A stretch of 64,000 nt of DNA from Henricia sp. BOLD:AAB3569. Its lineage: Eukaryota; Echinodermata; Asteroidea; Spinulosida; Echinasteridae. The notes beneath the pieces were generated by a model that ran no database searches, had not been told where the DNA came from, and worked only from the letters and a program-made list of their open reading frames with translations. Shown piece after piece: positions 18,025 through 44,683 of the stretch. Made by a program: the position numbers and the translations under genes. The stretch lies in the NCBI GenBank assembly GCA_037783545.1, contig JBBELK010000315.1, forward strand, positions 124,001 through 188,000, given 5' to 3'. Numbering within the stretch: position 1 is the first letter of the stretch; each line of letters begins with the position of its first letter.

Positions 18025-21000
18025 TGTGCACACCAAGCAGCTTTCCATGCTAACAGTTTTCCCAAACCGAAATTCTCATTTGGGGGCGTCTCCAATGTCC
18101 CCACTTCAGGACACTGCTGTTTATTATAGACCTTATTATAAATAAAAGAAAGGATTTGATGAAATCACCCCAGGATTCTTACCTCTTGGCCTAGCCTTTG
18201 TTTCTGTGCTTTCTGGACCTGAGCAAGCACCAAGGCAGCCTGCTTACCACCCATGACTGAGATTCTGGCATTGGGCCACATGTACAGGAACCGCGGCCTG
18301 ACAAACGACACAGGTAAAAATAAAACGCATCATGGAATGTCACACAAGATCAAAATAATCCAAGCTTGAATAAAAAGGCGTTTCAAAATGAAACAAAATT
18401 TCAAGTTCACGCCCTGAAACTGTCTGCCCAGCAATCACTATCAGTTACTTCACATGTTTCACGAAAGAGAACGTGTGGTCTAGTGGGTACGCAGCCGTGC
18501 TCATGATCTAAATATTGGTTTTGATTTATTGTCTGTAGAGGTTGTAAGTTCAAGCCCCACTTGTGGGTTCGAGCCCCACTTGTGGCAACGCATTTTTGTG
18601 TCTCTGGGCACGACAATTGCCTCGTCAAACCAAACAATATTCTGGGAGCTGTTTTGGAAATACTACAATCTAAGTGCTGATAGGGTTGTGCACCTAGGCC
18701 AGGCTGAAGCGAAATGGTTCGGGTGATTCCCTGATGGCAGTGGTAATAATGGCCACAGTGCCTTTGAATAACAGTCATGTTACAGTCATGTTACATGTAG
18801 ATACTGTGCGCCTTATAAATGCCCTACTATTATATGTGTGTTGGGCATACTCCCTCAGGTTTTCCCCAAGAACTTTGACACACCAGGCAGATGCTCTAAA
18901 TAAATAATAATAATGAAAATTTATAATGCGCCGGTATCCATCAAAAAAGATGCTCATGAGCTATGAGGCACAGTGGTATATTCCCTCAGGTTCCCCCCTC
19001 CCCCACCCCCAAGACCTCTGACACACCGGGCAGATGCTCTACCAGTTGAGCTATGAGGCACAGTGGTATACTCCCTCAGGTTTTCCCGAAGAACTCTGAC
19101 ATACCAGGCAGATGCTCAACCTGCTGAGCTATGAGGCACAGTGGTATACTCCCTCAGGTTTTCCCCAAGAACTCTGACATACCAGGAAGATGCTCAACCT
19201 GCTGAGCTATGAGGCACAGTGGTATACTCCCTCAGGTTTTCCCCAAGACCTCCGACATATCAGGCAGGTGCTCAACCAGCTGAACTATGAGGCACAGTGG
19301 TATACTCCATCAGGTTTCCTCCAAGACTTCTGACATACCAGGCAGGTGCTCAACCAGCTGAGCTATGAGGCACAGTGGTATACTCCTCAGGTTTTCCCCC
19401 ATGAACTCTGACACACCAGGCAGATGTTCTACCAGCTGAGCTACATGTATGAGGCACAGTGGTATACTCCCTAAGGTTTTCCCCAAGACCTCCAACACCA
19501 GGTAGATGCTGTACCAGCTGAGCTATGAGGCACAGTACATGTAGTATATTCCCTCAGGTTTTCCCCAAGACCTCCGACACACCAGGTAGATGCTCTACCA
19601 GTTGAGCTATGAGGCACAGTAGTATATTCCCTCAGGTTTTCCCCAAGACCTCTGACACACCAGGTAGATGCTCTACCAGCTGAGCTATGAGGCACAGTGA
19701 TATATTCCCTCAGGTTTTCCCCAAGACCTCTGACACACCAGGTAGATGCTCTACCAGTTGAGCTATGAGGCACAGTGGTATACTCCCTCAGGTTTTCCCC
19801 AAGACCACTGACACACCAGGTAGATGCTTTACCAGTTGAGCTAAGAGGCACAGTGGTATACTCCCTCAGGTTTCCCCCAAGACCTCTGACACACCAGGTA
19901 GATGCTCTACCAGTTGAGCTATGAGGCACAGTGGTATACTACCAAAGGTTTATCCCAAGACACCAACATTTTTCCTTTAAATTTCACTCCATCCACAAAA
20001 ACAAGGACATAATGAATTACACAATATTCAGCTCATACCCACTGCCCTAATATAGAGCACTGGGAATGGCAAATCGCTTTGAGTTCTCATTGCCCAAATT
20101 TTGCACGACACATGACCGCAAGAAACCCACAATGCTCTGTGCGTGACCCAGTGTGACGTATTTCCTTCACAAATTTTTGTGAAGCACATTTTTAGTTTTT
20201 CCCAGCGCCCCGTCAGGGCGGTGGTTAAGAGCAAATAACATTTCCCTCATTACCCATACGCCCGTCCACACATGCCGTAGTTGCCAGCACCAAACGATCC
20301 ACCCACGATGACTGTAATCTTTGGTACATTAGCACAGGCAACCGCCGTGACCATCTTGGCTCCATTCTTGGCAATGCCCCCTGCCTCTGCATCACGACCG
20401 ACCATAAAACCTGACCAATCGGACAAAGAGTGCATGATGATAATGTGGATATTTATATAGCACACATATCATTTCACATTATTATTTACTCCTGGGGGCG
20501 ACTTTACACCAACCTCTACCCCTTTGACTCTCACTTTAAGTCTTGCATCACACAGCTCTTTAAACTGCAGCTTGATTACAGGTAGTATACATGATTGGTA
20601 AACCATTACAAATAGTTTCATTCCCGTGTGTGATTGAAGGTATGCATGATTAAAACCAATCTGAGCAAAAATCAGCTCTGTACTTCGTCTAACTTTTGAG
20701 AAAACAGTCAAAAAATGGTTTATAGTCACTTCGCCCTGAACGACAGCCTGTGCACTAAAGGCCTTTTCCCACTACCCACCTCCGACCCGGGTAACTTTTC
20801 TACCCGGGTAGCGGTAAATAACCCGGGTTACATTTAACCCGGAGTTTCTTTTCACACGACAAGCGTTAACCCGGAGAAGCACTTACCCGGGTCGTCTCTT
20901 ACACGGGTACAACAGCGACACTTTTCCCACGGCATTTCTGCATGCGCACGTACCCGGGTAAACCAATCAGCACAAATACCCAGAAACCATTGCGTGTGGA

Positions 21001-24000: not shown

Positions 24001-27000
24001 TGCAATGTCGAGGTACGCTAGGCTTTACAAATTTTTCAAAACTCGATCAGAATGGCAGAATATTGTAACACATTATTAATGCCGGGGACACACTATCACA
24101 TAAAGCCTAGCCTTAAGGGCCAAGTAGGGCCAATTTAAAAAAAAAATAATACATTACGGTGTCATTTAAAGGCAGTTTGACTTGAGACTGGAAGGCAGTT
24201 TGTGTTGACTTGAGACTGGAAGGCAGTTTGACTCGACTTGAGACTGGAAGGCAGTTTGACTCGACTTGAGACTGGAAGGCAGTTTGACTCGACTTGAGAC
24301 TGGAAGGCAGTTTGACTCGACTTGAGACTGGAAGGCAGTTTGACTCGACTTGAGACTGGAAGGCAGTTTGATTCGACTTGAGACTGGAAGGCAGTTTGAC
24401 TCGACTTGAGACTGGAAGGCAGTTTGTGTTGACTTGAGACTGGAAGGCAGTTTGACTCGACTTGAGATTGGAAGGCAGTTTGTGTTGACAGAGGGTGGCT
24501 CATTTTAACACTGCATACAAACCTGTTATTAGTGTTTCTCCATAGAGTGTCTTAAACTCATCAAACACACTCCCATCAACGATACGAGCTATGACCTCAC
24601 GGATGTCGTAGACTTTACTGAAGTCACTCTGCGCAATGCCGTAGAGTTCGTCCGAGGGATAAATTGGGTCGCGAGGTTCCAGAATGGGAATCTTGTGAGA
24701 ACAAACAAAAAGTTCAATAGGGTGGTTTTACAGCTGTCACGGGTCACTAAAACCCTCCTGTGTTTGTCTTCCAGATCGAGGAGAGAACAGAAGAGCCACG
24801 TGGGGAAATGCACGTGGCTGCTAGCAGAAAAAGACGAGGCTCTATTGTTCTCTTCCCTTCTGGAGGACAAACACGAGAGATGTTAAGTGACCCATGACAG
24901 CTGTGAAACCACTCTATACAAAAAAATAAATAAATAAATAAATAATGCCAGCTGTTGAGTGTCAATTTCAGAATTATGGTAAAACCTTTTCATGATAAAA
25001 ATTTTAGCCGACGTTTGCATTTTTCTTCAAAATCAAACTGAGGAAGTTGCTTATTTTCAATTTCAAAATTTTCATGAAATCCAGTTCCATGGTTATTCAG
25101 TTATGGATACCCAAAATCAATGCACCAATCTTACATTTGGATTTTTTCGCCTGTTGAGTGTGGCAACTGCTCTCCGGGCCAAGTACAAAGCGTGGTTATC
25201 GTCTTCAGCGAGGTGGTCTGTAACACCAGACGTTCTGAAATGGATGACAATAGAGTATTAAAATGAACCCATTGTGTATTGCCAAGATTACTGGGTCTAC
25301 ACTAAAACCAGTGAACTGTTTCCCTGCGCTTTAGCAATGGACGTTTCAGATTACCAGCAAATGTTTAGACCCACTTTAGATGAACTATAACAAAGACACT
25401 TTTTTGTGCATGTTCATTTGTGCATCTATGCAACAAGAGAGAAAAGTTTGATTCTCAAGAAAAACCTTCTGGCCCAGTGACTCAATGTAAACAACATCTG
25501 TTTGCAACCAATGGCCTGACAGAGAAATAGCCCCAGGGTACAGCGGGCTGGTGGCCTTTAGTGGTTGGGGGGGAAGGACCTGCCTTCCGTAGTCTCCCCT
25601 TTGAGTCTCTGTGTGCAATGCAATGATAACAATCGGAGAATATAAAATTGAAAGGAAAAAAAGCACTAGGCCTATACTCACTCACCTACAATGCAGATCA
25701 GCCCCTCCTAAATCCTCCGGGGACACTACTTCACCAGTTGCTGCCCGAACCTATGGTAAAACACCAATGAAAATTGCAAATTTCAGCACAAATTGTCTTT
25801 TTGTGTGTAGTTTTTGCACTTTGTAGGGATGCCAGTAGCTCTTACCATCAGGGCCGAAAAAAAAAATCTACTATGCGTGTATGTACGTACGTACGTACAA
25901 GTGCACACAGCCTTGCCAGCACATGTACAGTATGTACATGTACACTGTGCAATGTCACCACTGCTGTATGGATACAGCGCCCTCTATAGTCTATGTACTT
26001 CTGATCAATAGTCTGGTTTCGTCAGTTTCATGGTACTTTAGCCGTGAATGATTATGGCCGGGATACAGACATATTGCATGTGTGCAAATCATGTACATAG
26101 GCTGTACATACATGTAGTATACATGACATAGGGCATATCCGGACATCGTTGATCAGTAAGTGAGACAATTTTCCACGTTTTTTTGGACTTGAAGAGTTGA
26201 AAATATTATTTCCGGCTTGGAATAAAGGCTTTGCCGGAATTCTTTTTCCAAAGTAAGAAAAAGCCGGAATTCCGGCAATAGCCGGAAGACTGGCATCCCT
26301 GACTTTGGCTCGTGCCCCAAATTCTTAACTTTCACATGATGCAGTTTGAAAGTCCACATACTATGCTGTTGTAGCTAAGTGGTGCACGCCAACGCCTAGC
26401 AACGAACAGTCTGGTTGCTTTATGCTATTCTCTTCTACAGTGAACCTGGTATTGATTCTGTACTTCACACCTGCCGTGTGCACCACATGGCAACACAAAA
26501 TTAGTCTGGTCCTCTGTAATTGCACTTTACATCCAATATGTCCAAGCTAATTCAGTGAATTTCAGTGCATCGTTTTACTCAAAGTTCCCTCCACATCACT
26601 TTTTCTCAACGCGACGCGCGTCGGAATTACATGCGCGCAAAAAGGCTCAGTGTGAATTCACCATTACTACAAAGTCGCAAACTGTTCGAAGTGACGATAC
26701 AATGAGCATCATCACATAACGCATGTAGTTCATGCACTGGACACGTCCCAGCTATGGCGGACACACAGGGACGTTTCCATGGTTAGGGAATGGTCTATAG
26801 TTTTGTTATACATACATGTACATACCCATGAAAGCACATAACATGTTTACCCTGACTATAAATATACTGATCAAAAAAAGGAAACGCACATTTTTGCAAC
26901 TGCCAATATTTTGCAAATTAGCCACCACGGAGCAGGACAATTTCACACCATTCATGTGAAGCATTATAAACTTCATCTGCACCAATAGACCGATCCAGTA

Positions 27001-36000: not shown

Positions 36001-38489
36001 ATTCCTGTGAGCTGTGATGAGTTCAGATGTGCCAGTCAATTAATTTCACGGCAAACCTTTTTGTCAAAATCTTAGCAAAAAATTCACGCATCGAATATTC
36101 GATCGAAAATCAAACCGATTTTTTTAATAGTAAATTATTCGAAAATGCAAAGGCCTATCTTGTACTGAGAAGTCCGATTACAACTTACCCCGGATCTAAG
36201 AGTGTCGTGATGCGATCCCTAACCAGCATCTTGCCCTGCGATACATGACGTTGGATGTTCTTCTCTCCTCCGCCTTTAGTGATCTTGGCAACATTGGATT
36301 TCAGCTCTGCAACTAGTTCTTTCATACGAACATAGTTTTCCTGGGTAATACAGTGGGAAGTTGCTGTAATTAACACAACAGTATTTTCAAGGAAATTGTT
36401 TAATGTTTATCACCCCTAAATAAAATTCCCTTCAAAATATTAACACTTTTTTATGTTTGAGTTATTCTTTTAGAAGGCTAAAAATGAATTTGACGTTTAC
36501 ATGTGGACGGAATGATTCACTTTTAGCCGATTTGAAATTTTGTCCCAACAGCCCAATCGCTATTTTGTAAATCTCTACATGTCCCTTCTCGTGAAAAAAA
36601 CATGTCTGAAATCTCGCCTTACAGTCCAAATCAAACATTGAAAAAACACCATGCAGTGACGTCATAAATGAGATGACCACAAGAAGGCGGGCTATCTTTG
36701 CAATAATTGGTTCACCATTAATCTGGCTGTTGAATTCCAACATCGTTGCAGTTTGCAGAAGAAATGTAAAGTAAAATTACGTTGGACAAGTTTTTTGTTG
36801 GAGATTCCAAGGACCTCCATGGTGTCTTTTAATGTTTTATTTTGACTGTAAGGTGAGATTTCAGACACGTGCATTTTCGGGAGCAAATACCAAATCAGCT
36901 AAAAGTGATTCATCACGTCCCAATATAAACGTCAGAAAATAACTTCTAAAAGTAGGCTACATGTACGTGAAGAAAAGTTTGAAGATCATAGTCGGCGTAG
37001 TCGCTAAACGCCGCACGACATCGGGCCCAAGAAAATATCAAGGTTTGCGACATGGTTCATACTTAAACGAGAGTAAAACCCAGAGTTTTTATACCGTTTA
37101 ATGCAATCCGCCCCGCCAAAACGGTGACGAAGGAGCGAGTGCAAATTTCCGCATTCCCGCAATGTGCAACCGCCGCGACACGGCGCAGGAAAGTGAACGC
37201 ATTCCATTTCAGACACAAACGGCAAACGTAAATCTGACGTAAAATAATTTGCGGTGAACTTTCGCCCAATTAGTTAACCTTAAGCGAATTTGTGGCGCAA
37301 ATCTTCAAATGCGCTCACTTTTGCAAGCCCTCACATTTGGCGTATCGCGGCCAGTCATCGGTTCTTCTGGCACAAATGAAAACGAGCGTGATCGCCCGAC
37401 GAGCTTCAGCACAAGCTCTAAAGTAACTAGGGTGCTACACTTTGTAGGACCCTTTGTCCTATTTTGTAAGGCGAAAGCCGCTTTGTAATGTCAAATTGCC
37501 ATTCACAATTAGGGATGTCAGACAAGTCGACCGTTGAGACAACTCGACCGTTGAGACAACTCGACCGTTGAGACAACTCGACCGTTGAGACAAAGTCGAC
37601 CGTTGAGACAAAGTCGAACTGTCTCAACGGTCGACTTGTCGGCTCTGTTATATGCAACAAAGGGAAGATATCTAATGCACAATGTACCTCTTAGTTTACA
37701 AGGTATTTAAATACCAGTTTTCAATTACATGTGTACTTAGTTTGAATGGAATAGGGCCATCATATTCCTAAACTAATGCAGCTAAAACCATGGTAAAACT
37801 ATCATCGCGGCAACCCCAACCGTATATCAACCCGGCCCGACCAAAAAAAACCTCATCTGGCCATAACTCCGCAACGGCGATCGATCAGCCAAACGGCGAT
37901 CGTCCCCGTCAAAATCCCCCCCGTCAAAATCCCCGGTACTACCTCAAAAACATGCGAGTCGATCTTGTCTCAACGGTCGACTTGTCTTTTCATTTATCGC
38001 ACATACGGTCGAGTTGTCTCAACGGTCGAGTTGTCTCAACGGTCGACTTGTCTCGAGTCGAGTTGTCTCAACGGTCGACTTGTCTGACCCCCCACAATTA
38101 GACAGTGAAATTAAATAATCGGCATGTTGCGTCAAATGAATCTGAAAAGATCGGCTGCTTGGAAATCATTTACATTTTTCAAGAACGGTCGAGTTGTCCT
38201 GGGCCTTAGTTCGTTGGGACCGAGTTAGCCTACATGTAGTTCTACCGCTACCGCAGTACCGGACCGCATTCATCATGGTCATCATGCTTATTGCAGAATT
38301 TCCCTTTTTTTTATTGCATGCTGGTACTGGTAGCCATGGTAGCGTTCTCCGGTAGGCTACCTTGTATTGTTCGGAGTTCTTATCCGGTAGTGAACCAACA
38401 GTGGCAACTCTTTCACTATAATACGACCGGAATGTACCTAAAACATTCCTTCGTATACTGAAACTAAACAGACGACAACAAAGATTCAT
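15763..38489 (-). CDS. MCCC2: Methylcrotonyl-CoA carboxylase beta chain, mitochondrial (complete gene, 15 coding exons)
   Basis: The carboxyltransferase subunit of 3-methylcrotonyl-CoA carboxylase passes the carboxyl group from biotin on the alpha subunit to 3-methylcrotonyl-CoA in mitochondrial leucine breakdown. Fifteen exons on the - strand, all with GT-AG borders and matching phases, sum to 1692 bp, which is 563 codons plus stop, the same length as human MCCC2. The order is 38489-38361, 36340-36189, 33160-33059, 31689-31562, 30204-30092, 27842-27729, 25750-25686, 25234-25135, 24691-24523, 23375-23299, 21914-21848, 20410-20254, 18297-18183, 16793-16708, 15880-15763. The N-terminus is Arg-rich and lacks acids until residue 26, as expected for a mitochondrial presequence. 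The carboxyltransferase N-half shows [24 protein letters not shown] and [16 protein letters not shown]. The C-half shows [33 protein letters not shown] and [18 protein letters not shown]. No frameshift or internal stop is seen. The introns are heavily loaded with transposons. Confidence 0.97.
16030..16242. mobile_element. Partial 'GTGGGTCTTTCCACAG' MITE in MCCC2 intron 14
   Basis: The right end is intact (CCCCTTTACTGTGGAAAGACCCAC) and the inner arms match 13937-14341. The left half is shortened. Confidence 0.7.
16245..16624. mobile_element. 380-bp element with 25-bp inverted ends, MCCC2 intron 14
   Basis: GTAATTCCCAAAATTAGGGG and its TCCAAAA continuation are mirrored by TTTTGGACC and TCTAATTTTGGGAATTAC at the other end. 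AT-rich and non-coding. Confidence 0.8.
16708..16793 (-). CDS. MCCC2: MCCC2 exon 14
   Basis: Encodes [20 protein letters not shown] and GSPYYSSAR. Acceptor CTTCCAG, donor GTCAGT. Confidence 0.96.
16897..17358. mobile_element. MITE with TAAACTCCTCAAAAAAAGTT ends, copy 1
   Basis: The terminal inverted repeat is at least 38 bp (AAACTCCTC through GTCAAGTTTGAC), and the arms pair along most of the element (GCACATCCCCCAA, GTGACATTTCACTTT). A second copy lies in IQCB1 at 62005-62494. The flanks are TA-rich. Confidence 0.85.
17491..17967. mobile_element. ACTCGG-rich hAT-like MITE, copy with lost right end
   Basis: It starts CAACGCTGTACGAGTCC and matches 22236-22718 along its length, including GAGCTGCCAAAGATCACAGG. 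Its right end is lost in a poly-G run at 17968-18024. Confidence 0.75.
17968..18024. repeat. Poly-G tract
   Basis: Almost pure G with three short breaks. It ends the transposon copy on its left. Confidence 0.9.
18183..18297 (-). CDS. MCCC2: MCCC2 exon 13
   Basis: Encodes [20 protein letters not shown] and the less conserved [17 protein letters not shown]. Acceptor TTTGTCAG, donor GTAAGA. Confidence 0.96.
18474..18825 (+). mobile_element. tRNA-derived SINE in MCCC2 intron 12
   Basis: The head has a pol III A-box-like TGGTCTAGTGGGTACG near 18476 and B-box-like words AAGTTCAAGCCCC and GGGTTCGAGCCCC near 18547-18577. The B-box segment is duplicated. A body follows, ending in GCGCCTTATAAATGCC and a short ATT-rich tail, the same 3' motif as the LINE at the left edge of the window. 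Confidence 0.65.
18838..19945 (-). repeat. Tandem array of about 13 tRNA-like 78-bp units in MCCC2 intron 12
   Basis: GAGGCACAGT recurs at about 18964, 19051, 19132, 19210, 19289, 19367, 19452, 19527, 19612, 19690, 19768, 19847 and 19923, giving a period of about 78 bp. On the - strand each unit reads GCCTCATAGCTCAGCTGGTAGAGC, a clean tRNA D-arm/A-box, then a T-arm position with GGGGAAAACCT, which is not a good B-box. A short LINE-like tail (ATAATAATAATGAAAATT, 18905-18925) interrupts the first units. Confidence 0.88.
20098..20240. repeat. Interspersed repeat, second copy of 806-930
   Basis: Shares ACCCACAATGCTC, GTGACGTATTTCCTTCACA and CCCAGCGCCCCGT in order with 806-930. It ends just before MCCC2 exon 12. 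Confidence 0.5.
20254..20410 (-). CDS. MCCC2: MCCC2 exon 12
   Basis: Encodes [35 protein letters not shown] and [10 protein letters not shown]. Acceptor TTGGTCAG, donor GTAATG. Confidence 0.97.
20581..21788. mobile_element. 'CGAAGTGG' MITE copy split by a younger CCCGGG-rich element
   Basis: The outer pieces (20581-20757 and 21496-21788) match the complete copy at 32379-32896. The insert (20758-21495) begins AAGGCCTTTTCCCAC and ends GTGGGAAAAGGCCTT. It contains about ten CCCGGG hexamers in TAACCCGGGTTA-type contexts. A TTAA follows the outer copy (21789-21792). Confidence 0.8.
21848..21914 (-). CDS. MCCC2: MCCC2 exon 11
   Basis: Encodes [20 protein letters not shown] then IT. Acceptor TTTACAG, donor GTAAGC. 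Confidence 0.96.
22060..22805. mobile_element. CAACTGG-rich foldback MITE interrupted by a hAT-like element
   Basis: Words such as AACTGGATACAACTAGTTGC, GAGCAACTTGCAGCAACT and GCCGCGAGTTGCTTCTAGTT match 23780-23970 of the intact copy (23566-24026). The copy is split at 22236-22718. Confidence 0.8.
22236..22718. mobile_element. Complete hAT-like non-autonomous element with 8-bp target duplication
   Basis: It starts CAACGCTGTAGGACTC and ends CAGCCCTG. Both sides carry CTGATTAG (22228-22235 and 22719-22726). An 8-bp duplication and CA...TG ends fit hAT elements. The interior is built of ACTCGG words and has no ORF. Confidence 0.88.
23299..23375 (-). CDS. MCCC2: MCCC2 exon 10
   Basis: Encodes [18 protein letters not shown] and YSSCALK. 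Acceptor TTATGCAG, donor GTAAAG. Confidence 0.96.
23432..23563. mobile_element. Palindromic MITE, copy 3
   Basis: AGGCACAGGCTCGTCAATGC to GCGCATTGTCGAGCCTCTGCC around a GCTCCATAGCAAAGGCATGG centre. TTAA precedes it (23428-23431). It lies 56 bp beyond MCCC2 exon 10 on the acceptor side. Confidence 0.82.
23566..24026. mobile_element. CAACTGG-rich foldback MITE, intact copy
   Basis: Ends AAGCCTAGCATACATCGACC and GTCGAGGTACGCTAGGCTT are inverted. Both arms consist of degenerate AGTTGC/CAACTGG repeats. It directly abuts the palindrome at 23432-23563. Confidence 0.8.
24168..24492. repeat. 28-bp minisatellite, 11-12 copies, MCCC2 intron 9
   Basis: The unit GACTGGAAGGCAGTTTGACT-CGACTTGA is repeated head to tail. 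Three units carry GTGTTGA in place of ACTCGA. Because 28 is not a multiple of 3, the long open frame on the - strand is an accident of the repeat. Confidence 0.95.
24523..24691 (-). CDS. MCCC2: MCCC2 exon 9
   Basis: Encodes [36 protein letters not shown] and YGETLITG. Acceptor CTCACAAG, donor GTTTGT. A 28-bp minisatellite ends 31 bp from the donor side. Confidence 0.95.
24716..24917. mobile_element. Hairpin MITE with GTGTTTGTCCTCCA arms, copy 2
   Basis: ACAGCTGTCACGGGTCACTA and CCTCCTGTGTTTGTCTTCCAG are mirrored by CTGGAGGACAAACACGAGAG and GTGACCCATGACAGCTGT. It begins about 25 bp from the MCCC2 exon 9 acceptor. Confidence 0.8.
25135..25234 (-). CDS. MCCC2: MCCC2 exon 8
   Basis: Encodes [20 protein letters not shown] and the following [11 protein letters not shown]. 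Acceptor ATTTCAG, donor GTAAGA. Confidence 0.95.
25686..25750 (-). CDS. MCCC2: MCCC2 exon 7
   Basis: Encodes [21 protein letters not shown], matching human [21 protein letters not shown]. Donor GTGAGT. Confidence 0.96.
26552..26805. mobile_element. Right-hand fragment of the composite MITE seen at 9132-10018
   Basis: CTCAAAGTTCCCTCCACATCA, CAGTGTGAATTCACC, CTATGGCGGACACAC and CCATGGTTAGGGAATGGTCT follow the same order as in the 9.1-10.0 kb cluster, partly inverted. Confidence 0.6.
26984..27553. mobile_element. 570-bp element with AATAGACCGATCCAGTAAGC ends
   Basis: The left end AATAGACCGATCCAGTAAGCTT and right end AGCTTACTGGATCGGTCTATT are perfect inverted repeats. The interior shares words (GTGCGCGTTACGCGTAATGC, CCAAACCTACTTTTAA) with 31020-31430. 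No transposase is seen. Confidence 0.8.
27729..27842 (-). CDS. MCCC2: MCCC2 exon 6
   Basis: Encodes [20 protein letters not shown] and [12 protein letters not shown], the most conserved stretch of the N-half. Donor GTAAGA. Confidence 0.97.
27870..28280. repeat. Diverged 'AAAGGCCCA-TTGCAATGACCC' repeat in MCCC2 intron 5
   Basis: It starts AAAGGCCATTGTAACATATGCAATGACCC, a variant of the start of the family at 33242. The end is not clear. From 28280 to 28800 nothing else is recognised. Confidence 0.45.
28803..29864. mobile_element. Tc1/mariner-type MITE split by a second transposon
   Basis: The outer element has ends CAGGGTGTCCACAAAAAAAA and TTTTTTTGTGGACACCCTG with TA on both sides (28801-28802, 29865-29866). 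The insert at 28928-29487 has ends AGGGGCGTTCGAGATGCT and AGCATCTCGAACGCCCCT flanked by TAT on each side. It lies in MCCC2 intron 5. Confidence 0.85.
30092..30204 (-). CDS. MCCC2: MCCC2 exon 5
   Basis: Encodes [19 protein letters not shown] and [18 protein letters not shown]. Donor GTCAGT. The human protein has Tyr where Asn follows SGGA. Confidence 0.96.
30285..30545. mobile_element. Repeat element carrying an 11-bp microsatellite
   Basis: GTCACACGAATAACGACATA ... TGTGCGGGTGACTCC resembles 12121-12215 (GAATACGACAT ... TGCGTGTGACCCC). The core expanded into the ATTGTAATCAT array at 30355-30512. Confidence 0.55.
30355..30512 (+). repeat. 11-bp tandem repeat ATTGTAATCAT, about 14 units
   Basis: Runs of ATTGTAATCAT, with CTT variants at the start and CCC variants at the end, about 150 bp from MCCC2 exon 5. 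Confidence 0.95.
30570..30895. mobile_element. 'GGAGCGTG..GATC' MITE, diverged copy
   Basis: CCATGGGAAGAAAACAGGAA, TTTGCAATCTGCAATTTGG, GAATGGTAATGAGAAAAATG and GACCTGGTC follow the same order as in 60319-60617. Confidence 0.65.
31562..31689 (-). CDS. MCCC2: MCCC2 exon 4
   Basis: Encodes [28 protein letters not shown] and LPCIYL. Acceptor GTTTTCAG, donor GTGGGT. It is split inside the Val of LVDSGG. Confidence 0.96.
31797..31946. mobile_element. 150-bp palindromic MITE, MCCC2 intron 3
   Basis: GAAATTGATTTAGCTTGCGTCA and CTGAATGTTAATTAGGG are mirrored by CCCTAATTAACATTCAG and TGACGCAAGCTAAATCAATTTC. The arms are about 48 bp. Confidence 0.85.
32379..32896. mobile_element. 'CGAAGTGG' MITE, complete copy, TTAA target
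   Basis: It lies between TTAA at 32375-32378 and TTAA at 32897-32900. The centre is a run of loosely repeated CGAAGTGG/GGGCAAGGTG words. The ends carry TACATGATTGGTAAAC and its diverged complement. Other copies: 20581-21788 (split) and 50097-50566 (inverted). Confidence 0.82.
33059..33160 (-). CDS. MCCC2: MCCC2 exon 3
   Basis: Encodes [11 protein letters not shown], then [17 protein letters not shown]. Acceptor ATCATCAG, donor GTAGGT. Confidence 0.96.
33242..33740 (+). mobile_element. 500-bp MITE family with TTAA target sites, copy 1 (MCCC2 intron 2)
   Basis: It starts AGGCCCAGTGTATCATTTGC after TTAA (33238-33241) and ends GATCATCTACAGGGCCT before TTAA (33741-33744). Two more copies are at 47341-47838 and 63023-63547. 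It has no long ORF; short ORFs recur only because the copies are similar. Confidence 0.88.
34551..34955. mobile_element. 400-bp hairpin MITE (GTATACATTGAACAAA ends), copy 1
   Basis: GTATTTTTTCCGTATACATT to AATGTATACAAAAAAAATAC; the arms pair for about 140 bp (TACTTCCCACTTGCACTTTT, GCAAATGTTGC). Other copies: 51211-51611 and 52708-53112. The flanking octamers CAATCTTT/AAATCTTA share 6 of 8 bases. Confidence 0.8.
35097..35865. mobile_element. 770-bp foldback element with arms of about 185 bp, MCCC2 intron 2
   Basis: TTTCATACAGTGGATTGTTG, TCGAAATTAGAATCACACCC and GACAATCTTCGACGAG in the left arm (35097-35285) are mirrored in the right arm (35683-35865). The centre has a separate GGAGTCGACTCC / CGATTCTAGTGTGGAGTC inverted pair. 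Confidence 0.78.
36189..36340 (-). CDS. MCCC2: MCCC2 exon 2
   Basis: Encodes [14 protein letters not shown] to [11 protein letters not shown], with the conserved KGGGEK and SQGKML blocks. Acceptor TTACCCAG, donor GTAAGT. Confidence 0.96.
36469..36957. mobile_element. 490-bp inverted-repeat element, MCCC2 intron 1
   Basis: GACGTTTACATGTGGACGGAATGATTCACTTTTAGC near the left end pairs with GCTAAAAGTGATTCATCACG and ATATAAACGTC near the right end; TTAGAAGGCTA pairs with TAGGCTAC-side words. Confidence 0.6.
37513..38092. mobile_element. 580-bp foldback element with 17-bp tandem repeats and a 9-bp target duplication, MCCC2 intron 1
   Basis: It is flanked by CACAATTAG on both sides (37504-37512 and 38093-38101). 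It begins GGATGTCAGACAAGTCGACC and ends GGTCGACTTGTCTGACCCCC. Each arm is several tandem copies of a 17-bp unit CGACCGTTGAGACAACT (some with AAGT), in opposite orientation in the two arms. A 9-bp duplication is typical of Mutator-like elements; this class call is an inference. No ORF. Confidence 0.88.
38361..38489 (-). CDS. MCCC2: MCCC2 exon 1 (codons 1-43)
   Basis: ATG at 38489-38487. It encodes the presequence ([16 protein letters not shown]...) and ends SEQYK before GTAGCC. The phase-0 joint to exon 2 gives SEQYK-ENYVRMK, matching human SALYQ-ENYKQMK. Confidence 0.92.
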
Positions 38490-38844
38490 TTTTAGCTTTT
38501 GTGTGCATCAATAGTTCACCCCGACAAGCCGCACGGTCGATGTTAAATCTCAAACGCTGCAGTAATGTTTGCAAAATTCAAGAAATATCCGAAGAAAAAA
38601 CTAATTGGGCCGCACGAGGGCGCTGCAAAAGACACAATTTAGACTTGACCAAGTCTTTCAAAGGCAGATTTGTGTGTGTGAGGCTGTGATTACAACGACC
38701 TCCGCGCCTTATAGTGCCAGGGCATTATGAATTATTCCATGAGCCTTCTTGGTTGTGGCAGTCCAATGAATAAATTTCAATTGTATCTTAGTGGGTCTCT
38801 GTCTTTGTTGCGTTGGGCCAATAAAGTACCTTGGTCTGCCTGAA

Positions 38845-40555
38845 TTCAACCTCAAACGCTGCAGTAATATTTCTGTATAAAGTACACTGGTCAGCGCGAA
38901 ATCCACCTCAAACGCTGCAGTAATTTTTTTGAAATAAATTATATTGGTCTGCCTGAAAACCACCTCAAACGCTGCAGTATTATTTTTGTATAAGGTACAC
39001 TGGTCAGCGCGAAATCCACCTCAAACGCTGCAGTAATATTTTTTAAATAAAGTATATTGGTCTGCCTGAAAACCACCTCAAACGCTGCAGTAATATTTTT
39101 GTATAAGGTACACCTGGGGCCGATTTCACTAACACGAAATTTTGCGATCATCGTTAGAACGATCGCTAAATTCAAATCCATCGTTATTGCGATGGCGGTG
39201 GATTTTGCATTTCACTAAAGCCGTCGTAATAGCGATGAGTATTAATTATAAATACATTTATTGGACGAGGACGATCGCTTAGTAACGCGTAAACAACCAG
39301 AAATATGGCTTCAGATATATACCATGGTGCTCGGATGTTGTGGATGTTGAGAGCCACAAATAACGGTTGCATCTATTGCGTGGCTCCTAAGAGTTGAAGG
39401 GCGGAGATGTGGCTCTAAAATGTCAATAATTCTCATGACACCATTCCGCGTAAACCGATAATATTTGTGCATCTTTTTGTCACTGTATGAATCCAGAGGA
39501 TTTGTCCTGTCCCTGAAAATCCTCTCTCTCTGTAATGTTATTGCATTGTTTGTACAACTGAAACGCCATTTCGAGACACACTGAAAATCACCAAACCTTC
39601 CAAATACTAATCAAATGGCGCGAAATTGTATGTTAGCGATGAATGTTTCCATTTACGATGACAAATTAGTCGTCGCTAAATATTCATCGCTAAAAAACAA
39701 CTAGCGATGGCCAACGCCATTGCTAAGTTTTTGTGAAATCGCTCTTCGAAATTAATCGCTAAGTTGCGATGGATTTCGAGTTTAGCGATTGATTTGGACA
39801 TTAGCGATCATCGCAAAGCGTTAGTGAAATCGGCCCCAGGTCAGCGCGAAATCCACCTCAAACGCTGCAGTAATATTTGTGCGTGAAGCATATTGGTCTC
39901 CCTGAAAACCACCTCAAACGCTGCAGTAATATTTCTGTATAAAGTACACTGGTCAGCGCGAAATCCACCTCAAACGCTGCAGTAATTTTTTTTAATAAAG
40001 TATATTGGTCTGCCTGAAAACCACCTCAAACGCTGCAGTAATATTTCTGTATAAAGTACACTGGTCAGCGCGAAATCCACCTCAAACGCTGCAGTAATTT
40101 TTTTTTAATAAAGTATATTGGTCTGCCTGAAAACCACCTCAAACGCTGCAGTAATATTTTTGTATAAGGTACACATGGTCAGCGCGAAATCCACCTCAAA
40201 CGCTGCAGTAATTTTTTTTTAATAAAGTATATTGGTCTGCCTGAAAACCACATCAAACGCTGCAGTAATATTTGTGCGTAAAGCCTATTGGTCTCCCTGA
40301 AAACCACCTCAAACGCTGCAGTAATATTTCTGTATAAAGTACACTGGTCAGCGCGAAATCCACCTCAAACGTTGCAGTAATTTTTTTCTGTATAAAGTAT
40401 ATTGGTGAGCCTGAAAACCACCTCAAACGCTGCAGTAATATTTCTGTGTGAAGCATATTGGTCTGCCTGAAAACCACCTCAAACGCTGCAGTAATATTTA
40501 TGTATAAAGTACACTGGTCAGCGCGAAATCAACCTCAAACGCTGCAGTAAGATTT
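38845..40555 (+). repeat. Left satellite arm, alternating 57-bp units
   Basis: About 18 copies of AAACGCTGCAGTAAT spaced 52-58 bp apart, each with a CTGCAG site, alternate between two unit types to form a dimer of about 114 bp. The array is broken by the insertion at 39114-39839. Confidence 0.93.
39114..39839. mobile_element. MITE with CCTGGGGCCGATTTCACTAA ends, nested in the left arm
   Basis: A 21-bp perfect terminal inverted repeat (CCTGGGGCCGATTTCACTAA plus C) encloses many GCGATSATCG / TTAGCGAT words. It sits in the middle of one satellite unit, so it is younger than the array. Confidence 0.85.
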
Positions 40556-40624
40556 CTGTGTATTCACATTATGTAACGCTGCATGGTCTTTAAGCATGAA
40601 TGCACATATCAATTGTTTCAAACC

Positions 40625-40657
40625 CACCCCCCCCCCCCCCCTCCCCCCCCCCCCCCG
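40625..40657. repeat. Poly-C tract
   Basis: Two pure C runs separated by one T, followed by GTGGGG/CCCAGGG-rich sequence to 40830. Confidence 0.9.
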
Positions 40658-41205
40658 TTTCTCATGCCCCTGGGTGGGGCATTTGACCCATTTTCTGTGC
40701 ATTTTTATACAAGACGCGCATGTTTTGCACCCGCGGGTGGGGAATTTGTAACCTTATGTTGTCCCAGGGTTGGGGATTTTGTCACGCAAAAAGTGACAAT
40801 CACCACCTCTCAGGTGGGGTAGCCCGGGGGTAGGGGAATGAGGCAGGGAAACGATTGATAAGTGCATAACCTTCAGTATAATATAGTTGCTTGTCCTCAA
40901 AACGGGATCCCTTATCTTCTACAGTAAACAGTTAATTGAAGCTGAATGGCCATGAACAGCTGTCCATAAATGTTATGATGACTACGTCATTTGCGTAAAC
41001 AATGGTTGTTTGTTTATGTCGTCTCCGTTGGTGGGCAATTATGGTTCGTTGCTTATAAAGAGGGAAATAAAAGCTGTATTTTCTCCCGTGACTTAACTGC
41101 TCCACGCCGTTATTTACGTAAAAAGGTATTTTAACGTAATTAAACTGTACAGTAACTTCAAAACCAGTAACTGTTATTATCTGTGTGTTTACTGTTTTCG
41201 TTTAA

Positions 41206-41557
41206 AGGAGCGTGAGCAGATCACATTTTGAGCCTCCAATTTTTTCCATGGGTGTTGAGATTTTGATTCCATATGATGTGTCATAGTTTTTCGCGGCCCC
41301 AATTCGTATATTTCCAGGGATATGGTCAGCAATGTAATTTATAAACTGCATGGTTACATAAAGCATGGAGAAAGAAACTTTCTCCATGCATAAAGCAATA
41401 CCGTGATTACTCCGACCTTTTTGCTTCCACATCCAAATTGGAAATTGCAAATTTCCTGTTTGCCTGTATAAAAAAGTATGTTGGAGAGGTATTTTATATG
41501 ATTGCTAGCCTAGGTTAAAACATAATCAATTTTCTGGAAAAATCTTAACACGTTCCT
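41206..41557. mobile_element. 'GGAGCGTG..GATC' MITE between TTAA sites
   Basis: It starts AGGAGCGTGAGCAGATCAC after TTAA (41202-41205) and ends AACACGTTCCT before TTAA (41558-41561). Other copies: 30570, 57502 (split), 59701 and 60319 (inverted). Confidence 0.8.
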
Positions 41558-41559
41558 TT

Positions 41560-42825
41560 AAAAACGGGAAGATGTAAATTTACACGATTATTTATTTCCA
41601 CACAACCTCCCGAGGGAGAAGTAAAATACCCCACGACATCAATATACTAAAATTAAAATGGAGATAATAATTGTTTAGGCCTAATACCATCAAAGTCATT
41701 CTTGAACAAAAGAAACTTGATGCTATCACATATACCATGATTAACACATAAAATATCCTTAAAAGAATTTTACTTTGCATCAAAAATTGAATTTACCAGA
41801 GAAAACTTATTTTTGCAATTCTCAACACGTGACACCAAAGTACCATTACATATAGTAGTTGACTTATCGCATGTGTTATGACAATTTAACAATTGAGAAT
41901 AAAATGCTCTGGATGCAGAATCATTATTAAACTTAAAACTTGAGACATAAGACCCAACTGTAAACCCTTAATAATGCAGCTCACTTTAGGCACTCCAATA
42001 GCATGCAATAAGGGTGTACTATGACAAATCTGTGCTATTTGGAACTAGTCCATTAATTTACAATCATAAAAAACCCAACTTGAAAGTTGTTTGGGGGGTT
42101 AAAATCAAGGTTTTCGATTTTTATGCTAATGAAAATTTACATATGCATGAGCAAAGTGATGGAAAACACAGGAAAATCTCATTCAACTGTGCACAAAAGT
42201 TTCCACAATTTTCTCCAACTTGCTGAAACGTTTGTAACCCATGATGGTTTAGGTTTGTTTTACATGTTGCCTGTTTCAAACCATGAAAAAACTAAGGCTG
42301 GAAACTGCAGCATGTTTTTTCTTTGCTTTTTTGCAGTGTGTTCCTAAAGTGACATGCCCCAAACAGCGCCCTCTGTCTGTGAGTTTATGTAAAGATATTT
42401 TCAAAGTTGAAGATGACACTTTTTCTCATGGGGCATCAAAATGAACAGTAGTATTGTCTTTCTACACAAGTAATCCTTCATATGCAGCAAAAACTGTGCA
42501 TACGTTATTGAGCATTTCATGGCCCTTTAAATTAACACTCTGACATCCATAAGTCAATATGGGGATTAAACCGGAATTCCACAAACTTTGACATCCGAAC
42601 TGGAACCACCCTTACAAAGCCCGCCCCCTGTAGGGAGAAGAATGCCATTTGACATTTCCTCATTCTTTCTTCCATGTGACTCTTACAATTTAAATCAGAA
42701 GACAAAGTGACCCCTAGGTTAGTGATATGATCGAATCATTTAAAAACCAAGCAGGTTCATTAACAAAATGATTCTTCCCAAAAGTGCAGCAAAATGTCTT
42801 AGAGGGATTAAAACGTAAACCATGT
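41560..42825. other. Centre of the foldback element, no gene seen
   Basis: AT-rich sequence. I scanned for transposase or reverse-transcriptase motifs and saw none. Short ORFs show no family I know. Confidence 0.4.
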
Positions 42826-43985
42826 TGTTTGAGGTGGTTTTCAGGGAGACCAATAGGCTTTACGCACAAATATTACTGCAGCGTTTGATGTGGTTTTCAG
42901 GCAGACTAATATACTTTATTAAAAAAAAATTACTGCTGCGTTTGAGGTGGATTTCGCGCTGACCAGTGTACTTTATACAAAAATATTACTGCAGCGTTTG
43001 AGGTGGTTTTCAGGGAGACCAATATGCTTCACGCACAAATATTACTGCAGCGTTTGAGGTGGTTTTCAGGCAGACCAATAGGCTTTACGCACAAATATTA
43101 CTGCAGCGTTTGAGGTGGATTTCGCGCTGACCAGGTGTACCCAGGGCCGGATCCAGGATTTTAACAAGGGGGGGGGGGGGGCGTGAAATTTTTAAGCATG
43201 AAATGCTGATGACAATGAAATAGCGAGCGCATAGCGCGAAGCCCTAACGGCTTCCGGATGGATTCTAGATGCTCTGTGGTGCGATCTGGGGCAATATTTA
43301 ACCACTTTAAGCAGTAAAAGTGTGCACAAAATGTGTTTTTTTGTTTGTTTTTTTTTGAAAAGGGGGGAGCGTGCGCCCCCCACGCCCCCCCCCCCCCCCC
43401 CCTGGATCCGCCCCTGGTACCTTATACACAAATATTACTGCAGCGTTTGAGGTGGTTTTCAGGCAGACCAATAGGCTTTACGCACAAATATTACTGCAGC
43501 GTTTGAGGTGGATTTCGCGCTGACCAGGTGTACCTTATACAAAAATATTACTGCAGCGTTTGAGGTGGTTTTCAGGCAGACCAATATACTTTATTTAAAA
43601 AATATTACTGCAGCGTTTGAGGTGGATTTCGCGCTGACCAGTGTACTTTATACAAAAATATTACTGCAGCGTTTGAGGTGGTTTTCAGGGAGACCAATAT
43701 GCTTCACGCAGAAATATTACTGCAGCGTTTGAGGTGGTTTTCAGGAAGACCAATAGGCTTTACGCACAAATATTACTGCACCGTTTGAGGTGGATTTCGC
43801 GCTGACCAGTGTACTTTATACAAAAATATTACTGCAGCGTTTGAGGTGGATTTAGCGCTGACCATGTGTACCTTATACAAAAATATTACTGCAGCGTTTG
43901 AGGTTGTTTTCAGGGAGACCAATAGGCTTTACGCAGAAATATTACTGCAGCGTTTGAGGTGGATCTCGCGCTGAACGGTGTACTT
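42826..43985 (-). repeat. Right satellite arm, inverted 57-bp units
   Basis: About 15 copies of ATTACTGCAGCGTTTGAGGT, the complement of the left arm, again in two alternating types. The array is broken by the insertion at 43142-43416. It degrades at 43985 into CCC-rich DNA (44020-44105). Confidence 0.93.
43142..43416. mobile_element. hAT-type MITE with CAGGGSCGGATCCAG ends and 5-bp target duplication
   Basis: It starts CAGGGCCGGATCCAGGATTT and ends CTGGATCCGCCCCTG, with GTACC on both sides (43137-43141, 43417-43421). It contains poly-G and poly-C runs at its two ends and sits inside a satellite unit. Confidence 0.85.
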
Positions 43986-44379
43986 GCTACAAAAATATTA
44001 ATACAGCCTTTGACTCCTATCTCCCTTCCCCTCCTCTCCCCTCGACCGCCCCAACCCTGTCCCGGCCCACCCCTGCCCCAACCCCACCCCAACCCCACAC
44101 CCTCCAAGCCAAGTAAATGCAAGTCGTATCATGGAGCTATATGGTCGTATACAGCCAAAACAAACACAAAACCCTAATTATTTTCCATTGATGCAAGCCG
44201 AATCGCTAATAATTTGTCTCGCTGAAAGCTAATGGTAGGCGTACTATTGTACCATTTTATGCCAAAGGACTAGGTGAAGTCTAATTTAGAAGCAAAATGT
44301 GTGCCGCCCTCATTCGACTTTTTCTTCGGATATTTCTTGAATTTTGAAAACATTACTGCAGCGTTTGAGATTTAACATC

Positions 44380-44512
44380 CACCAAGTCGGTCGGGCGCAG
44401 ACATTTTGCTTTCGGACCATGAATGGCGCCCTCTTTCGTTCCCAAGTGCTCGTACCTGTTTCGCAATCACACGCACGTGCGTCGGCAGCGTGTAAACAAA
44501 ACAATAACGTTT
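44380..44512. other. GC-richer non-repetitive DNA beyond the foldback element
   Basis: This short stretch (GTCGGTCGGGCGCAG ... CACGCACGTGCGTCGG) is not recognisably repetitive. It could be the original upstream region of MCCC2 now separated from its ATG; this is only a suggestion. Confidence 0.25.
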
Positions 44513-44683
44513 AATAGACTACTAAAGTGTGACGTCAGTTGCCATGGTAATAGGGTCTAAACATTCGCTGGTAATCTGAAACGTCCATTGGTATAGCGCA
44601 AGGAAACGGTTCACTGGTTTTAGTGTAGACCCAAAAACCATGGCAACACACAAAGGGTGACGTTTTCACTTTAGTAGTCTATT
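44513..44683. mobile_element. Palindromic MITE 'TAGACTACTAAAGTG', copy 2
   Basis: AATAGACTACTAAAGTGTGACGTCAGTTGCCATGGTAAT pairs with ACCATGGCAACACACAAAGG and TTTTCACTTTAGTAGTCTATT. Length about 170 bp. Confidence 0.82.

Follow-up and report, generated by a model that had tools for sequence, protein, structure and literature searches.

We analyzed a stretch of 64,000 nucleotides from Henricia sp. BOLD:AAB3569 (Echinodermata; Asteroidea), here called the window (assembly GCA_037783545.1, contig JBBELK010000315.1, positions 124,001 to 188,000; coordinates below are those of the window), and identified a foldback element of 5,849 bp (38535..44383) next to the predicted start of the MCCC2 gene. 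It is strongly supported that this element belongs to a family of foldback DNA transposons that is dispersed through the genome and transposes with a 9-bp target-site duplication. Taken as a whole, including the inferred steps discussed below, the explanation of the window element as a non-autonomous DNA transposon of the foldback type, from a young and recently mobile family, is very probably correct. The family is new but belongs to a kind of transposon that is already known, although rarely dissected, and no report of the family was found in the literature searched, a search that did not cover repeat-library names.

Structure of the foldback element

The limits of the element were set by probes from both ends, as the similarity to other copies begins at 38535 and ends at 44383; a first-pass annotation of this DNA had placed the ends at 38539 and 44379, 4 bp short on each side. 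The foldback plan claimed by that annotation is real: long inverted arms, composed largely of tandem repeats, surround a middle region. The left tip (GGTCGATGTTAAATC..., 38535..38599, + strand) and the right tip (44319..44383, - strand) are 65 bp each and identical at 63 of 65 positions as an inverted pair, and the left tip is conserved with 98-100% identity in 39 other full-length left-end matches (~136 bp) among those listed. Comparison of copies also revealed two subterminal stretches, one confined to the left end (38600..38820, + strand) and the other to the right end (44014..44318, - strand).

Based on a tandem-repeat finder and an inventory of units, the left array (+ strand) consists of an outer part with 5 units (38821..39114) and an inner part with 13 units (39839..40571), and the right array (- strand) of an inner part with 5 units (42827..43143) and an outer part with 10 units (43416..44013). 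The resulting 18 left and 15 right units, spaced by 56-58 bp, agree with the approximately 18 and 15 units of about 57 bp noted before. Each tip contributes one further copy of the 18-base core of the units, CTCAAACGCTGCAGTAAT, which has 35 matches in the window versus 0.01 expected by chance. This core is present exactly in the tip: the tip reads GGTC, ten bases, CTCAAACGCTGCAGTAAT and, one base on, TTT, and the array unit reads GGTC, fourteen bases, the core and TTT.

Two head subtypes (A and B) and three tail types of units could be distinguished, and the tandem-repeat finder reported periods of 56, 112-113 and 169-170. The alternation of two subtypes proposed previously is frequent but not strict, as the steps between neighbouring units in 21 sources were 395 BA, 383 AB, 187 AA and 36 BB (176 further steps involved an unclassified unit). 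Among 1,175 units (112 unclassified), variability per site in the core was only 0.3% for subtype A (619 units) and 0.5% for subtype B (444 units), whereas it reached 17% (A) and 32% (B) in the unit tail, with the head in between (3.9% and 2.9%, respectively). The contrast in conservation between core and tail stands.

A dispersed family with 9-bp target-site duplications

The host assembly (740.7 Mb in 2,104 contigs) was searched with a 28-base tip pattern allowing up to 3 mismatches. We detected 112 matches (57 forward and 55 reverse), and a reversed control gave none. One hundred of these 112 matches were listed, and all results on tip pairing and distance rest on those 100, among which paired tips face each other. 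A 224-bp array probe yielded 651 matches in the genome; those listed came from 26 contigs and typically fell into two clusters, one on the + and one on the - strand, separated by several kb. Such hundreds of array matches might suggest that the arrays are an ordinary satellite of 56-bp units, invaded or captured, and that the tips are incidental. However, 25 of the 26 contigs among the listed array matches also carry a listed tip (on C70 it lies 24 kb from the arrays), the remaining one (C1051) has a left end without its first 19 bp, and complete copies have their arrays between paired tips with target-site duplications. We therefore consider a satellite origin highly improbable. An assembly artefact, the other alternative raised at first, fails as well since many loci show the same inverted arrangement.

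To examine target-site duplications, we compared the flanks of 38 head-to-head pairs from the listed tips with 1,406 non-partner comparisons. Perfect 9-bp duplications were present in 22 of the 38 pairs, so that complete copies with target duplications, as looked for in a dispersed foldback family, were indeed recovered. One additional pair (C429) has a perfect 10-bp duplication and four pairs match at 8 of 9 positions, followed by C752 (7/9), the window copy (6/9) and nine pairs with at most 5/9. Non-partner comparisons reached a maximum of 7/9, and only 21 of them scored at least 6. The best length was 9, and lengths of 8 and 7 were at background level.

Ectopic recombination, as might be visible from reciprocally swapped duplications, was also searched for among 88 ends, and none of the five cross matches of at least 8/9 was interpretable. 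One of them is the pair C227 after re-pairing (see below), three (C163/C1063 twice and C46/C412) share identical 20-bp flanks, and the fifth (C121a/C121b) is a palindromic CA/TG run. The identical flanks on different contigs (L091/L095 for C46/C412 and L060-L061/L096 for C163/C1063) probably reflect duplicated or haplotype contigs.

Age and variation among copies

The family is young and recently mobile, because 14 of 15 middles are within 0.13-0.78% of the consensus (0.31% for the window copy); the remaining one, C752, diverges by 3.6%. Twelve complete copies have arms of 15-67 units, and the space between the arms is 3.75-4.24 kb in nine of them, 2.6 kb in C132 and C480a and 2.28 kb in the window copy. 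The middles of C132 and C480a have a deletion in common, and these two copies also share all eight differences from the consensus (8/8) and a right-arm stretch that is exact over 1,594 bp; yet they have different perfect target-site duplications, which implies that one deletion derivative has moved. Another case of arm sharing involves two ends on C121 (L102 and L103), which are 643 kb apart and have arms identical over 2,946 bp; their flanks differ and they show no duplication of their own.

In 12 of 15 copies the middle has the same orientation relative to the left end, and in the other three (C423, C497 and C752) it is inverted. The inverted copies share few differences from the consensus (one between C423 and C752, none between the two young copies, C423 and C497, or between C497 and C752). 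Such little sharing fits middles that flipped independently when the inverted arms recombined, and it is also possible that the inverted copies represent an old inverted lineage.

The middle and nested elements

The middle is usually ~3.8 kb in this family. In the window copy it is only 2.3 kb (~2.25 kb, 40572..42826 by comparison of copies), as this copy lacks ~1.6 kb that other copies have at the 3' side of the middle. Although the middle had been thought to hold no recognised open reading frame, we found that it contains the end of a broken reverse-transcriptase gene of the non-long terminal repeat type on the - strand (42555..42826), cut off at the array border. This assignment comes from a homologous stretch of another copy, L025, whose frames neighbouring that stretch match RVT_1 (Pfam); the part kept in the window has no Pfam match of its own. 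Pieces of RVT_1 in the middle lie in three different - strand frames. Judging from these frames, the middle appears to be a passenger with a broken reverse transcriptase and without a transposase.

Two short elements are nested within the arms of the window copy. The first, at ~39115..39838 (exact ends approximate), is an inverted-repeat element with GGGGCCGATTTCAC ends and is absent from the 20 stretches compared. The second (~43144..43415) has CAGGG...CCCTG ends and GTACC on either side.

Transposase and superfamily

Mutator-like elements (MULEs) generate target-site duplications of 8-11 bp, usually 9, and the 9-bp duplications observed here are of this length. Because 9-bp duplications and GG ends fit Mutator-like transposons, these sequence features make it likely that the family belongs to the MULE superfamily. 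The duplications of P elements are 8 bp and those of Galileo 7 bp, and neither is the best length here. Another explanation is that the same foldback anatomy was moved by a transposase of a different superfamily (for example, P/Galileo-like or Merlin-like), with the arms being convergent. Foldback structures do occur with different transposase types, such as the P-like one of Galileo (PMC3688188), and the Tm1 paper states that foldback-like elements are not necessarily related (PMC3169594). In addition, no MULE gene could be linked to the family tips (100 listed tips; four loci read). On the other hand, the duplication length is 9 bp, lengths of 7 and 8 show no signal, and the ends begin with GG. 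We consider a transposase from another superfamily unlikely.

The transposase search of the genome was confined to the MULE domain. It produced 24 matches, 20 of them over the cut-off (56 candidates, all scored), and four of the 24 loci were read; their ends differ from the family tips. At two loci (L108 on C216 and L109 on C808), frames with the MULE domain lie between inverted arms with short tandem GGTCGTTTCGTACCC-like repeats, which, by their sequence, appear to be a second, coding, repeat-armed MULE family of this genome.

Long tip pairs were considered as possible autonomous copies. The interiors of L037 (C121) and L034 (C74), read in part, hold retrotransposon frames, which we take by their look to be Gypsy-, DIRS- and BEL-like, and these large frames are later insertions. 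Variant ends that have no arrays nearby (L101, L105, L106, L107, L114 and L115) showed no recognisable transposase-like frame by eye, no Pfam search being made.

Proposed mechanism and possible birth of arrays

Here, we propose that a Mutator-like (MULE-type) transposase supplied in trans would move the element by recognising CTCAAACGCTGCAGTAAT, which occurs once per tip and once per array unit. The arms would then consist of multiplied transposase-binding sites, a putative role that we read from the presence of the unit core in the tip and from the analogy with the end repeats of Galileo. Unequal exchange may lengthen or shorten the arms, and the middle may flip when one inverted arm recombines with the other.

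How such arms arise might be seen at one locus (L112, C139:1740700-1741500), in which three tips lie in tandem 74 bp apart, each period comprising 38 bp of tip and 36 bp of host flank. AAAA is common to the junction, and the outermost copy of the flank is 7 bases longer. This arrangement is what a duplication across the element-host junction would leave, and it is possibly a snapshot of array birth, although it is a single locus and could be an assembly error. The mature 56-bp unit likewise resembles a tip-like sequence of ~40 bp joined to an unrelated 16-bp piece. A speculative extension, which we consider rather improbable, is that foldback arms are born at the element-host junction by microhomology-bridged tandem duplication of tip and flank and are then amplified. 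If so, the 16-bp piece would be a fossil of host flank, and sites multiplied in this way would recruit the transposase more strongly and hence be favoured.

Several observations weigh against the interpretation of the element as a non-autonomous transposon moved in this way. A longer, transposase-coding copy was searched for, but none of the copies read contained a transposase, and none of the 24 MULE-domain matches has any of the 100 listed tips (112 in total) within 50 kb. Nine tip pairs have flanks matching at 5/9 or less (C71, C121a, C121b, C60, C62, C268, C308, C563a and C227), of which C227 was mis-paired in the set of 38, as its inner tip 683521 gives 9/9 with 696811. The two arms of an element resemble each other only slightly more than they resemble arms of other elements, the median longest exact match being 205 within an element versus 145-160 between elements. 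Moreover, when units are located by their heads, core variability rises to 0.6% (A) and 1.1% (B) after dropping 14 and 6 units, respectively, and to 1.9% with none dropped, so the contrast in conservation between core and head is not secure. Finally, the duplication of the window copy is only 6/9 even though its middle is 0.31% from the consensus.

The last point deserves closer consideration. The 9-mers flanking the window copy are AAGCCGCAC on the left (38526..38534, + strand) and AAGTCGGTC on the right (44384..44392, + strand). The window copy might not be a simple insertion, its halves having come from different copies via ectopic recombination, or it might contain an internal rearrangement or assembly join. 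Of the 1,406 unrelated pairs, 21 do at least as well as its 6/9, and the copy is too young for three substitutions within 9 bp to be likely. However, a search for mates of its flanks in direct orientation returned only its own left tip, and the search in the other orientation returned three imperfect matches besides its own right tip, with no convincing mate; the 6/9 match may also be a damaged true duplication. We regard a composite or rearranged origin as possible but less probable than a simple insertion.

The MCCC2 gene and neighbouring repeats

MCCC2 lies on the - strand, with two exons recognised by motif (~27812 and ~25230) and a plausible first exon, whose coding part (38361..38489) comprises 43 codons followed by a GT donor. 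Ten frames scanned against Pfam in search of MCCC2 exons gave no match. The first-pass annotation was right that the element lies close to the MCCC2 ATG, which starts at 38489, but the gap is 45 bp rather than 50. The element either inserted or came to lie at this distance upstream of the predicted start codon, and the promoter may be situated in the gap, within the element or farther upstream.

Other repeats were also observed in the window. A short inverted-repeat sequence resembling a miniature inverted-repeat transposable element (AGACTACTAAAG...CTTTAGTAGTCT) lies at 44509-44681, immediately beyond the element on its right side. In or near MCCC2 there are tandem arrays of 28-bp and 17-bp units (24179-24482, 37520-37611 and 38005-38085), and the 17-bp unit is present in both orientations. 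Farther away, 19007-19961 contains 12 copies of a 78-bp unit, with text resembling a tRNA A box by eye; ARAGORN identified no tRNA in this array.

Comparison with known foldback elements and significance

Inverted arms built of tandem repeats, with a middle between them, are also known from FB of Drosophila and TU of sea urchins. Their repeat units are shorter (~10-31 bp in FB and ~15 bp in TU) than the 56-58 bp units of the present family, which is set apart from them by description and not by sequence. The nearest known system in plan, likewise compared by description rather than sequence, is Tetris of Drosophila virilis (PMC4079207). Tetris has tandem repeats inside inverted ends, a repeat sharing a 37-bp stretch with the terminal domain, target-site duplications of 8-10 bp and a variable middle without a conserved frame, and no coding copy of it was found, in line with the family studied here (PMC4079207). 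In contrast, the Tetris unit is ~220 bp and three complete copies were reported, whereas the present family has a unit of 56-57 bp, a constant middle in either orientation and arms of up to 67 units. Tm1 of root-knot nematodes combines such duplications and repeat-built ends with a MULE transposase; its repeat is ~14 bp and a coding (Phantom-like) MULE copy is known (PMC3169594), while no coding copy was found here. Galileo of Drosophila also has long, internally repetitive inverted ends, whose repeats hold extra transposase-binding sites, but it belongs to the P-element superfamily, and binding was measured there (PMC3688188) and is inferred here.

Few eukaryotic transposons are as poorly understood as foldback elements, also in how their repeat arms arise, and few foldback families have many intact young copies. 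In this genome, dozens of copies are nearly identical and have clean duplications, their arms range from 15 to 67 units, and sister copies, copies with a flipped middle and a tip-plus-flank tandem occur as well, so that the birth of arms, their growth and inversion between them are testable here by comparison alone. The family also provides a link from transposons to satellite DNA, and the window copy, lying next to the predicted start of MCCC2, is a natural test of the effect of such an insertion on a promoter.

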